From positions 1 through 43,089 of the forward strand of contig JAADIO010000031.1 in NCBI GenBank assembly GCA_013151235.1: 43,089 nucleotides of DNA, given 5' to 3'. Positions 1,421-26,032 of this stretch are shown here, piece by piece (positions within the stretch are counted from its first letter, which is position 1; the number at the start of each line of letters is the position of its first letter). The translations under genes and the position numbers were made by a program. Source of the stretch: Deltaproteobacteria bacterium (GTDB taxonomy: Bacteria; CG2-30-53-67). The notes beneath the pieces were generated by a model. The model was not told the DNA's origin, did not search any database, and saw nothing but the letters and a program-made list of their open reading frames with translations.

Positions 1421-2347
1421 CTACTGGATGTTTTTACGGATATCCTCGCCGAGAAGATTGAGCAGGGCATCAAGCTTTTGCCGGATCAACTGGCGGACCA
1501 TGAAAGGTGAAGCGGTCCTTTTTATCATCAATTCACCCTCCCGGATGCCTAACAGTGCGGCATCGCTGGATCGAATCGCCCGGACCCAGATTTTGACGGA
1601 GAAATCTTCTTCAAAGGCCGGCATCTCCGACTCTTTGGCCGTGCGGATCTCGACAAGTCCCAGCACCACGGCATCGGCACTCAGGCGCCTCCCCTGAAGC
1701 GCTGTCAAACGGTTATTCACTCGCAGTTTCTCAAAACTGTTGGGGCTTTCTTCGCTCGCAACGGGATCCCGGATAATCTCAAATCCTCTCGTCCGGTACT
1801 GCTGAGCGGCAAAGCGGGTGAAATCTTCTTTATTTCCCATCAGGCGGTTAGGCACACCTTGGTCGATTCGTGTCTGAATAAAGAGCGCCAGGGCAAGGGT
1901 TTTGCCTTCATAGCGGATCAAGCCGACTTCCGCAAGCTTCCGTTTAATCTTCTCTTCGGAAACTCCGGCTTCGACTTCAACCTTGTAAAGATTATCCTCC
2001 CGCCGGTCGAAAAGAATTCGGTAGCGGTCTATGTACTCCATTGGATCGTGTGAAAGGATCTCCTTCAGGGCATCGTTGTAACGGGAGAGGGTCGAAAAAT
2101 AGAAGAGTCCGGCCACGGTTTCTTCCACAGCGCCGGAAAAGGCCTTCTTGAGGGCTTGATCTCTTGCGGCATTGACATCCTTTTGCAGGATGACGCCGAT
2201 CCCGGTACTTTGTACGGTCTTGAGGGCTGATGCCGATTGAGGGAACACAAAAAAAAGAAGAACAAAGAGGCATACGCACCCGAAAGAAACCCCGTTCTTT
2301 CTTTTACCCCGGAGGATGGCGCAAGATTTTTTAAAAGGTTCAACCAT
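1421..2347 (-). CDS. exported protein with FlgT-like N-terminal domain
   Basis: A 308-residue protein with a signal peptide: a basic start, a hydrophobic stretch at residues 20-36 and an ASA cleavage site at about 39-41. The mature part begins with TGIGVILQKDVNAARDQALK, which resembles the N-terminal domain of FlgT and related envelope proteins (residues ~45-150). The rest is unassigned; a periplasmic or outer-membrane-associated role is inferred. No flagellar gene is nearby, so a flagellar role is unproven. The start ATG lies exactly at the edge of a palindromic insertion and has no ribosome-binding site in front of it. The frame stays open through the insertion, which could mislead gene callers into a 350-residue product. 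Before insertion it probably overlapped the end of the upstream gene. Confidence 0.8.
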   Translation of the reverse strand: MVEPFKKSCAILRGKRKNGVSFGCVCLFVLLFFVFPQSASALKTVQSTGIGVILQKDVNAARDQALKKAFSGAVEETVAGLFYFSTLSRYNDALKEILSHDPMEYIDRYRILFDRREDNLYKVEVEAGVSEEKIKRKLAEVGLIRYEGKTLALALFIQTRIDQGVPNRLMGNKEDFTRFAAQQYRTRGFEIIRDPVASEESPNSFEKLRVNNRLTALQGRRLSADAVVLGLVEIRTAKESEMPAFEEDFSVKIWVRAIRSSDAALLGIREGELMIKRTASPFMVRQLIRQKLDALLNLLGEDIRKNIQ

Positions 2348-2510
2348 GATGGTGTCGTAAAAAGTCACGAAGCCCTTCGACCCTTCGACCAGCTCAGGAC
2401 AGGCGTGCTCAGGGCGAACGGTGTAAGTGATTGATATTTTGATATTCCGTTCGTGGTGAGCCTGTCGAACCATGAACGGAATCCGGAAAACGACTTTTTA
2501 CGACTTCATC
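2348..2510. mobile_element. MITE-like palindromic element, copy 1
   Basis: A 163-base element with terminal inverted repeats (left GATGGTGTCGTAAAAAGTC; right end is its complement with two mismatches). The inner arms are also inverted: each contains a TTCGAC...CTCA...GAACGG motif. AACCAT occurs on both sides (2342-2347 and 2511-2516), as expected of a target duplication. It carries no transposase. A second copy lies at 24282-24452. The element supplies the TGA stop of the upstream gene and abuts the ATG of the downstream gene. Confidence 0.85.
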
Positions 2511-3528
2511 AACCATTAAGCATCTCCACGAAGGCTTCGAGCCGAATCCGGGTCCGCTGGTCCAGTCCCCCCGGTTTATCCCCCTCCAGCGTCAGGACCG
2601 GCACTTCCAGCCGTTTCCGGAAGAGGATATCCTCAATCTGCCGGAAGCAGAAGGCCTGGGCATAATGAATGATCCCGTGAATCTTCCTCTGTCGAATCTG
2701 TCCCTGCACATCCTCCAGCCGCCCATAGATACTGTAGGGATAGGTATAGATGAGATACTGCTCAACGAGATCCGCCGCTTCAAAAGGCATGGCAAACTGC
2801 CTCTGCACTTCGTTATAGACAACCCGTCCTCCCATCTCCTCGATCGCCTCATAGAGTCCGTTGATAATCGGAGGAACACCAATGAACCCGATTCGGGGTC
2901 CATCGGGAAAGGGCTTTCGCTGCGCCACTTCCGCAAGAAAGCGGTCGAGCTCAGATTCGTAGGTCACTGGGTCTCCACGAAAGTCACTGGCGCAGACCTG
3001 GTAGTAATGATTTTCCTGCCCGGTGACCCGGTTTCCTTCCCAGGTTTCCCGATCGATCTTTCGGATCTTTCCCCGGAGGGACAAAAGCTTTTTCCGGACC
3101 GATTCCGCGGCCTCCAGGGTGGTCCCAAAATGTCCGGCCGTCTTCTCCATTTGCAGACGGAGCAGGTCCGGGTCCCGGTCGTAGGGATAGGCAAAGGGGA
3201 AGATGCGGATCCCCTCTTCTTCAAAGATCTCCATGAGGGCATGGGTGTTGCTGCAATCCCCTTGGGTAACGGCGATGACTTCCTCAAGTCCTTCTTTGCG
3301 GGCCGCCGAATAGATCCCCTTGATCCACCCGCAGGTGTTTCGAGGAAACCCGCGTTCCTCCGCCTCTTCCACACGGCTGCAAGGATCGGGATCCTCGATA
3401 AAAATATTGTTCAGGTCCACCGGCGTCCGGCCTGCGGCCAGAAGAATCTCCACGGGGATGCTTGTCGTAAACCCGACCGGTTCGTTTTGCATGAAGGTTA
3501 AATTACATGAACCATAAGAAGCTGTCAA
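2509..3528 (-). CDS. 2-hydroxyacyl-CoA dehydratase family protein (HgdB-like)
   Basis: About 339 residues resembling the D-component (HgdB/FldC-type) of 2-hydroxyacyl-CoA dehydratases, which hold a [4Fe-4S] cluster. The N-terminal GFTTSIPVEILLAAGRTPVDL pattern and cysteines at 50, 66 (NTCGW) and 92 (GDCSNT) fit cluster ligands. Such enzymes normally need a partner subunit and the ATPase activator HgdC. Neither is next to it, so this may be an orphan paralogue with another role. The start is uncertain: TTG at 3528 has a strong AAGGAG only 4 bases away, while ATG at 3492 (327 residues) has none. The last codons and the stop lie in the target site of the palindromic element. Confidence 0.8.
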   Translation of the reverse strand: MTASYGSCNLTFMQNEPVGFTTSIPVEILLAAGRTPVDLNNIFIEDPDPCSRVEEAEERGFPRNTCGWIKGIYSAARKEGLEEVIAVTQGDCSNTHALMEIFEEEGIRIFPFAYPYDRDPDLLRLQMEKTAGHFGTTLEAAESVRKKLLSLRGKIRKIDRETWEGNRVTGQENHYYQVCASDFRGDPVTYESELDRFLAEVAQRKPFPDGPRIGFIGVPPIINGLYEAIEEMGGRVVYNEVQRQFAMPFEAADLVEQYLIYTYPYSIYGRLEDVQGQIRQRKIHGIIHYAQAFCFRQIEDILFRKRLEVPVLTLEGDKPGGLDQRTRIRLEAFVEMLNG

Positions 3529-24269: not shown

Positions 24270-24281
24270 TCATCAATCCTT

Positions 24282-24452
24282 GATGGTGTCGTAAAAAGTC
24301 ACGAAGCCCTTCGACCCTTCGGCCGGCTCAGGACAGGCGTACTCAGGGCGAACGGTGTAAGTGATTGATATTCCGTTCGTGTGGTTCGACCATGCTCGGA
24401 AGCTTGTCGAACCATGAACGGAATCCGGAAAACGACTTTTTACGACTTCATC
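24282..24452. mobile_element. MITE-like palindromic element, copy 2
   Basis: 171 bases, closely matching copy 1 at both ends (GATGGTGTCGTAAAAAGTC at the left; complement with two changes at the right) and differing by indels in the centre. AATCCTT flanks it on both sides (24275-24281 and 24453-24459), a 7-base target duplication. It lies exactly between murJ and the deacetylase gene, overlapping neither coding region; the duplicate covers the last two bases of the murJ stop. Confidence 0.85.
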
Positions 24453-24457
24453 AATCC

Positions 24458-26032
24458 TTAACGATGGGGACTCCCGGAACGCCTCAAAAGCCAGTCCCGG
24501 ACCATCCGGACCTCTTCGACACGAAAAAGGAGACACATCACCGTATAGCCGCCGCCCCCCAAAAGGATCCCCCAGCCCAGCCTATAAAATTTTTCCAGCG
24601 TATGTCCATGAAGTTTCCAGAGAGCCGTTCCCGCCCCGTAGTACGCACAAAATCCGAGGATCGCCGAAGCGGGAAGAATTTTCAGCAGAAGACGGAGAAA
24701 GGCCGTCCCCCCGAGGGGACCGACCCGTTTTCTGAGAATCCAGACCAACAGGGAAACGTTCAGCATGGAGGAGAGAGAATTGGCCAGGGCCAGTCCCCCA
24801 TGCTTCAGAGGCCCCATGAGAACCAGGCTCAGCACGACGTTGGCCAGAACGGCCGTGGCGCCGATCTTCATCGGCGTCCAGGTATCCTGCAGAGCATAAT
24901 AAACCTGAGCGACCACGCGTACTTCCGCAAAGGCCCACAGCCCCAGGGAATAATAGAGAAGGGCCTGCGCCGTGGCAACGGTCGCGGAATAGCTGAAATT
25001 TCCCCGCTGGAAGAGTGCACTGACGATGGGAACGCTCAATACGGACAGCCCCACCAGGGAAGGAAGCATGAGAAAAATGACTAATCGCATGGTCCGGCCA
25101 AGGGTCTCCACCATCCCCGGGAGATTCTTTTCGGCGGCGTGCTGTGACAGCGTGGGCAACATCGCCGTGGCGGCGGAGATACCAAAGACTCCCAGAGGAA
25201 ACTGCACCAGCCGATCGGCAAAAAAGAGAAAGGAAATACTCCCCGTGGGGAGGAAGGAGGCCAGAATATTTCCGATGAAGATGTTGATCTGGAGTACGCT
25301 CTGGCCGATGATACCGGGGACCATCAGACGGACGACACGCTGAAACCCAGGATGACGCGGCTGAAACCGGAATCGAAAACGGAAGCCTCTTTTCCATAAA
25401 AAGGGAACCTGCACGAGAAGCTGAAAGATCCCTCCCAACAGGATGCCGATGGAAAGACTCAGGATCGGCACGGACAGATGGGGCGATAGAAACAGGGCAC
25501 AGAGAATCATCATAATGTTCAGAATGGCCGGGGCCAGGGCGGGGGCGCCGAAGTGTTTCAGGGAATTCAAGACCCCCATCACCGCTGCGGAGATCCCGAT
25601 AAAGACGGCAAAAGGGAAAGTGACCCGCGTCAGCAAAACGGCCAGTGCAAACTGTTCAGGATTGTCGGAGAACCCGGGGGCCAGGCCCCGCACGACCCAG
25701 GGAGCAAAGAAGATCCCGAGAAGAGTCAATAACGTTACCAGCGCTGAAATGGAAGTCATGACCACGTTGGCCAGTTCCCATGCTTCGCTTTTGGACCGGC
25801 GGGTCAGATATTCCGAGAAAACCGGGACCAGGGACGCGTTCAAGGTCCCTTCTCCGAAGAGTCTGCGCAGGTAGTTGGGAATCCGGCTGGCGACGATAAA
25901 GGCATCCGTGGCCAAACCGGCGCCGAAGAGATTGGCCACGATGACATCTCTCAGATATCCCAAAATCCGGCTCAGGAAGGTGGCACTGCCGATGATACCG
26001 GCAGCCTTCGCAATCTCCTGATTCTTGCCCAT
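24458..26032 (-). CDS. murJ: lipid II flippase MurJ
   Basis: A 524-residue polytopic membrane protein of the MOP superfamily with ~14 hydrophobic segments. It flips the peptidoglycan precursor lipid II across the inner membrane. Signatures: GIIGSATFLSRILGYLRDVIVANLFGAG at 11-38 and RIPNYLRRLFGEGTLNASLVPVFSEY at 50-75 with the conserved arginines. It has its own promoter and heads the run murJ-deacetylase-tsaD-dusB-ntrBC. Confidence 0.96.
   Translation of the reverse strand: MGKNQEIAKAAGIIGSATFLSRILGYLRDVIVANLFGAGLATDAFIVASRIPNYLRRLFGEGTLNASLVPVFSEYLTRRSKSEAWELANVVMTSISALVTLLTLLGIFFAPWVVRGLAPGFSDNPEQFALAVLLTRVTFPFAVFIGISAAVMGVLNSLKHFGAPALAPAILNIMMILCALFLSPHLSVPILSLSIGILLGGIFQLLVQVPFLWKRGFRFRFRFQPRHPGFQRVVRLMVPGIIGQSVLQINIFIGNILASFLPTGSISFLFFADRLVQFPLGVFGISAATAMLPTLSQHAAEKNLPGMVETLGRTMRLVIFLMLPSLVGLSVLSVPIVSALFQRGNFSYSATVATAQALLYYSLGLWAFAEVRVVAQVYYALQDTWTPMKIGATAVLANVVLSLVLMGPLKHGGLALANSLSSMLNVSLLVWILRKRVGPLGGTAFLRLLLKILPASAILGFCAYYGAGTALWKLHGHTLEKFYRLGWGILLGGGGYTVMCLLFRVEEVRMVRDWLLRRSGSPHR

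Follow-up and report, generated by a model that had tools for sequence, protein, structure and literature searches.

A MITE-like insertion between a Shine-Dalgarno sequence and the start codon of a putative small secreted-protein gene

MITEs that lie in operons, fuse in frame to genes or carry short open reading frames (ORFs) at their ends have already been described, as the accessible parts of three sources show (PMC10969869, PMC2229807, PMC6382973). The Chunjie MITE of Geobacter uraniireducens (Chen et al. 2008) is, like the element considered here, short, with terminal and direct repeats and dozens of copies of variable length, and the available text places these copies mostly in intergenic regions, with one in an operon, as here between co-oriented genes (PMC10969869). 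The likeness is one of description only, Chunjie being 235 bp (PMC10969869, accessible part) and the present element 163 bp, and the present copy sits exactly between a Shine-Dalgarno (SD) sequence and a start codon at a junction of overlapping genes. The Correia/NEMIS, ERIC, YPAL and RPE elements share with it a length of 100–200 bp, long RNA stem loops, insertion adjacent to genes and open frames able to form in-frame fusions with host genes, but their end repeats are different, and the accessible part of the source describes no separation of an SD from an overlapping start (PMC2229807). The ends of MITEAba12 likewise carry start codons with a few codons after them, and the element has stops in several frames, but it is 113 bp long, of other sequence and from another host (PMC6382973, accessible part).

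A precedent of another kind is the split initiation of T4 genes 25 and 38, in which a foldable sequence between SD and start narrows the gap, as it might here, the spacing being cut from 27 to 11 and from 22 to 5 nt (PMC3014915, accessible part). The T4 gaps are 22–27 nt with no competing, well-placed ATG, whereas the gap described below is 176 nt and includes such a competitor (PMC3014915, accessible part). Within the accessible texts of the open-licence literature no description was found of a MITE that parts an overlapping start from its SD; this does not prove that none exists. The element itself, and insertion events such as this one, are ordinary in kind.

Layout of the locus and the element-free junction

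The window, that is, the whole stretch of DNA analysed, is a complete contig of 43,089 bp (G000:C31) from a 2.62-Mb genome in 73 contigs. On its minus strand, a gene resembling the D-component of 2-hydroxyglutaryl-CoA dehydratase (2509–3528; Pfam PF06050, 119.1 bits, cut-off 28.4) precedes an intact gene of 308 codons (1421–2347). The latter is called FlgT-like here, a tentative name because its match to FlgT_N (PF16548), at 21.5 bits, lies under the cut-off of 28.8. By eye, the N-terminus of its product resembles a signal peptide, and the gene is taken here to encode a small, putatively secreted protein; comparison with solved structures returned no convincing relative (best E 0.17).

Between the two genes lies a MITE-like element of 163 bp (copy 1, 2348–2510, no strand assigned). 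Its ends, found by pattern and re-read letter by letter, are 19 bp terminal inverted repeats, GATGGTGTCGTAAAAAGTC (2348–2366, plus strand) and GATGAAGTCGTAAAAAGTC (2492–2510, minus strand), which match at 17 of 19 positions. Re-reading of the letters also showed the target duplication AACCAT on either side (plus strand). The copy at 2342–2347 contains the FlgT-like ATG (complement of 2345–2347), while the copy at 2511–2516 contains a duplicated ATG (complement of 2514–2516) and keeps the SD. This SD, GGAG (2524–2527, minus strand), is located within the 3′ end of the dehydratase-like gene and pairs with the canonical anti-SD CACCTCCTT, confirmed at the 16S 3′ end of this genome (locus L173, one of five loci). 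The MITE-type insertion is exactly at the FlgT-like start codon, and the whole element now lies between this codon and the SD.

As it stands, the minus strand reads GGAG, ATGCTTA, ATGGTT (2511–2516), the element (2510–2348), ATGGTT (2347–2342) and GAACC. Taking out the element and one AACCAT gives GGAG-ATGCTTA-ATGGTTGA, or in a longer reading GGAG-ATGCTTA-ATGGTTGAACC, and so reproduces from the re-read letters the empty site proposed by the sequence-only reading, in which GGAG and seven nucleotides precede a start that overlaps the dehydratase-like stop. GGAG is now 176 nt from the FlgT-like ATG, close to the earlier figure of about 170.

The other side of the insertion is preserved. At the upstream junction, ATGGTT/GATG (slash at the element edge), the SD and the 8-base ATGGTTGA overlap (2509–2516) are unchanged letter for letter because the element starts with GA. 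The dehydratase-like stop TGA (2509–2511) consists of one T of the target duplication and the GA of the element, so the gene keeps its exact frame and stop, its protein ending in ...EMLNG. An ORF of 35 codons, MVDEVVKSRFPDSVHGSTGSPRTEYQNINHLHRSP (2409–2516, minus strand, by ORF reading), opens at the duplicated ATG behind the original SD and ends at TGA 2409–2411, which is 40 nt ahead of GTG 2368 and 61 nt ahead of ATG 2347; the TGATG at the same junction also opens a three-codon ORF (MKS). The original initiation site persists but now reads into the element, and the earlier claim that the SD had been parted from its start needs amending: a duplicated ATG and a rebuilt TGA still follow the SD, which now drives the 35-codon ORF.

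Consensus sites resembling promoters or terminators were absent from 2200–2700, and the element as supplier of either was rejected on that ground. Across the 43,089-bp window, the only known RNA families found were two tRNAs.

FlgT-like sequences were searched for in 98 genomes, 18 of which had a match at E up to 0.001. The family compared here consists of the genome under study and five relatives (G001–G005), the remaining 12 matching genomes being distant and outside the junction comparison. In the genus-mate G001 (JAJRUP010000098.1, L149), whose FlgT-like homologue is 77% identical over residues 17–308, the site is without the element and reads GGAG-ATGCTCA-ATGGGTAA. The GGAG-7 nt-ATG spacing and the 8-base overlap are identical to those of the reconstructed empty site, as had been predicted for a relative lacking the element. 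The junctions of G003 and G005 are ATGA overlaps, and those of G002 and G004 read TGA-G-TTG behind GGAGGG. All five relatives are free of the element at this site and have the start overlapping the stop or one base from it, so the element-free relative with no such arrangement, which had been named as the counter-example to look for, did not appear among them. The native gene pair has the layout of translationally coupled genes, with an overlapping or abutting stop and start and the SD in the upstream gene. G001 has a second possible start farther in, ATGAAAAGGCG, preceded by an SD-like AGGGAAGGG; of these two candidates, the start at the overlap is the likely one. In the window gene, no ATG, GTG or TTG lies between ATG 2347 and the signal-peptide core.

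The element family and a candidate autonomous partner

Using the end-repeat pattern GATGNNNTCGTAAAAAGTC with up to 2 mismatches, and the same pattern read backwards as control, 177 matches (93 + 84) were found in the 2.62-Mb genome against 1 + 2 for the control, corresponding to roughly 90 copies, and G001 gave 71 + 100 against 2 + 1. The element is repeated beyond chance, given the 177 ends against 3 control matches and the target duplications. A DNA search with the element matched at least 48 places in its own genome (40 of 125 candidates scored), 33 places in G001 and 2 short stretches in G002, with no match in G003–G007.

From 80 fetched loci of the own genome, 58 pairs of ends were assembled, and an 80-bp pair with 4 mismatches (L124) was dropped as spurious before counting, leaving at least 57 complete copies; 22 single ends were looked at but kept outside this count, as were several copies at contig ends. 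Exact target duplications are of 6 bp in 41 of the 57 copies, 7 bp in 7 and 4 bp in 1, and 8 copies have none, one of these (L037) being cut off by a contig end before its flanks could be compared. Of the 48 duplications of 6 or 7 bp, 42 begin with A and 44 have T at position 6, the consensus being A-W-N-N-W-T. According to a crude gene caller based on codon usage, 4 of the 57 copies fall inside ORFs, and the others are intergenic or have no called neighbour. Copy 1 has the features of a MITE: it is short with inverted repeats, has a target duplication, dispersed copies and an empty site, and contains no transposase gene, the longest frames in its 163 bp being of 35 and 42 codons.

The core of the element is modular, with palindromes around TGAGCCTGTCGAACC and CTGAGC...GTCGAAGGG that vary in number, and copy lengths range from 104 to 329 bp. 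G001 has a version of its own, often found at contig ends, in which about 150 bp separate the ends GATGACCTCGTAAAAAGTC and GATGGCTTCGTAAGAAGTC (L158 and the pattern list). At contig ends of the genome under study, two different multi-copy sequences, one containing TTGACAACTGTCAACCATATCA and the other ACATAATGGCTGACAGTTGGCAAAAAAGTGCC, stop abruptly within the element's palindromic core (L091, L093, L095, L096 and L098, and L054, L099 and L142), as if insertion sequences used the palindrome as a target and thereby broke the assembly.

A search of the own genome for an autonomous element found none; it gave remnants interrupted by two in-frame TGA stops, together with a single frame of 27% identity. 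G001 encodes a 605-aa DDE transposase, IS1182-like, between two ends that resemble the repeats of the element, each with 1 mismatch to the repeat pattern. This IS1182-like element is a candidate for the autonomous partner. It resembles IS1182-like insertion sequences in its repeat ends, but its transposase scores 159 bits against NCBIfam IS1182, under the cut-off of 270, and a matching target duplication was not seen.

Translation of the FlgT-like gene after the insertion

The FlgT-like reading frame is open through the element, giving a 42-codon in-frame extension (2348–2473, minus strand, by ORF reading) from the ATG at 2471–2473. By sequence and pairing energy, the element also supplies a weak SD, AAGGG (2373–2377), and an in-frame GTG (2366–2368), together at 2366–2377 on the minus strand, which would add 7 residues. 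The calculated pairing with the anti-SD is −6.4 kcal/mol at the empty-site ATG and equally −6.4 at the duplicated ATG, compared with a best value of +0.4 in the −20 region of ATG 2347, in agreement with the earlier statement that this ATG has no SD. Pairing at GTG 2368 and ATG 2473 is −2.5 and −3.1 kcal/mol, respectively.

With 35 nt on each side, a simplified initiation-energy score gave the empty site 0.2 and the native G001 start 6.8, the values at ATG 2347, GTG 2368, ATG 2473 and ATG 2516 being 8.6, 6.6, 11.8 and 6.2, respectively; with 80/60 nt, the empty site scored 9.2 and ATG 2347 scored 11.2, a difference of only 2. The score separates the cases poorly. Because the native G001 start itself scores 6.8, and the gap with 80/60 nt is small, the argument rests on the loss of the SD and not on score totals.

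The insertion at the stop/start overlap has probably broken the coupling of the FlgT-like gene and lowered its translation, leaving a residual output by restarts. A non-autonomous MITE has entered the overlapping stop and start of two co-oriented genes and duplicated AACCAT. The old SD-ATG-stop unit has stayed upstream, where it now opens the 35-codon element ORF, and the FlgT-like gene has retained a copy of the ATG but lost the SD. Coupling would be broken and translation would drop. Residual FlgT-like product would most likely come from ribosomes that finish at the 35-codon ORF (2409) or at the dehydratase-like stop (2509) and restart at one of the starts supplied in frame by the element, GTG 2368 (AAGGG) and ATG 2473, or else at ATG 2347, which has no SD. 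The impairment foreseen in the sequence-only reading gains from the insertion, the native layout and the lost SD at ATG 2347, but as the element also offers in-frame starts (GTG 2368 and ATG 2473) and a stem that might bridge SD and ATG, impairment is likely rather than certain.

Translation without an SD is common among bacterial genes, which counts against impairment, and it is conceivable, if rather unlikely, that the insertion has no meaningful effect, with near-native translation from the bare ATG or from an element-supplied start. The open frame through the element would allow this, and in the simplified score the native G001 start (6.8) is no better than GTG 2368 (6.6). The FlgT-like gene is also intact and under overall purifying selection, its dN/dS against G001 being 0.146 (NG86) or 0.177 (YN00) over 289 gap-free codons, with 0.094 over 322 codons for the dehydratase-like gene. 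Unique changes on the window branch versus G001 were, for the FlgT-like gene with four outgroups, 11/6, 10/7, 13/13 and 13/11, no clear excess, and 10/9, 11/8 and 12/5 in the dehydratase-like gene (a rate control using G001, G002, G004 and G005, with G003 left out). There is no sign of decay in the FlgT-like gene, and substitution rates have no power to date the insertion. With the gene intact, a dN/dS of 0.146 and no branch excess, either the gene may remain in use or the insertion may be recent; as the rates give no insertion age, dN/dS neither proves nor excludes a loss of expression. What speaks against an absence of effect is that SD pairing is wholly lost at ATG 2347, and that overlap or abutment is conserved in all five relatives.

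There is a slim chance of a split ribosome-binding site, in which the inverted-repeat stem sets GGAG 13 nt from ATG 2347 and the FlgT-like gene goes on using the old SD. In the predicted fold, bridging by the stem reduces the gap from 176 to 13 nt, equal to the 7 native nucleotides plus the 6-nt duplication. The end-repeat stem has pairing probabilities of 0.94–1.0 except at two mismatched positions, the fold has a z-score of −2.38, with 2 of 200 shuffles folding as well, and T4 genes 25 and 38 offer precedents (PMC3014915, accessible part). Such a site calls for no better placed start between the SD and the stem, but the duplicated ATG 2516 lies there, perfectly spaced at 7 nt from the same SD and ahead of the stem, and should win. 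The SD is itself predicted to be paired in the filled transcript (0.60–0.84), as is part of the AUG (0.90, 0.63 and 0.13 at its three bases), which argues against an efficient site of this kind, and the 163-nt insert far exceeds the T4 lengths.

That the assembly mis-joined the element between the two genes is barely credible, for although it is a high-copy repeat, and several contigs terminate inside copies, the AACCAT duplication at the site is perfect, unique flanks lie on both sides within the 43-kb contig, and these flanks are continuous with the G001 empty site.

Junctions at other copies

Copy 2 of the window (24282–24452, no strand assigned) lies between target duplications AATCCTT at 24275–24281 and 24453–24459. 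Read on the minus strand, the duplication is AAGGATT and includes what is probably the SD of the gene that follows. This gene would thus keep its SD, and copy 2 represents, on this predicted site, the opposite outcome to copy 1. At G000:C14:428-581 (L115), where AACCAT is likewise duplicated, the element cuts a GGAAG-AACC-ATGA overlap as copy 1 does. Its neighbours are an upstream MBL-fold-like gene (named by eye) and a downstream, intact kinase-like ORF of 618 codons; the upstream ATG yields only MMKS, and the kinase-like frame has no start inside the element. No empty site was found for this copy: of five genomes, four gave a match, in each case a distant one (identities of 33, 30, 34 and 36%).

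In 5 of the 57 copies (L029, L031, L115, L117 and L137), the insertion point is directly after the T of the upstream stop. The GA that follows comes from the element, and none of the five upstream proteins has an altered C-terminus for this reason; at L137 the upstream stop changes from TAA to TGA, and at L117 the downstream flank itself starts with repeat-like sequence. The other end of the element carries an outward GAAGGGCTTYGTG in 33 of the 57 copies. The frame from this GTG reaches the end of the fetched flank in three of the 33 (L029, L133 and L042), and two more run into a contig end; as a generally used start the outward GTG was rejected, a long frame being present in only 3 of 33. At L133 (G000:C51:13450-14650), the copy is directly before the ATG of a lipoprotein-like ORF, VTFYDTI-KG-MVSLFLILMLPVAACTPRV, in frame with the outward GTG.

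A broader role for the element, as a portable translation boundary that rebuilds a stop, supplies an ATG and can enter overlaps without changing the upstream protein, is doubtful. The target rule A-W-N-N-W-T, together with the ends GATGNNNTCGTAA, would rebuild TGA after a host T, with an ATG on top of it (TGATG), and the outward GAAGGGCTTYGTG, where it shares the frame of the downstream gene as at copy 1, could provide a restart for that gene.

Copy 1 offers a clean experiment of nature in translational coupling, since its empty site is known and the old SD, ATG and stop have been handed as a unit to a short ORF, and L115 is a second cut of the same kind elsewhere in the genome. The locus bears on the dependence of coupled genes on an adjacent SD, and on mobile elements as suppliers of start codons.
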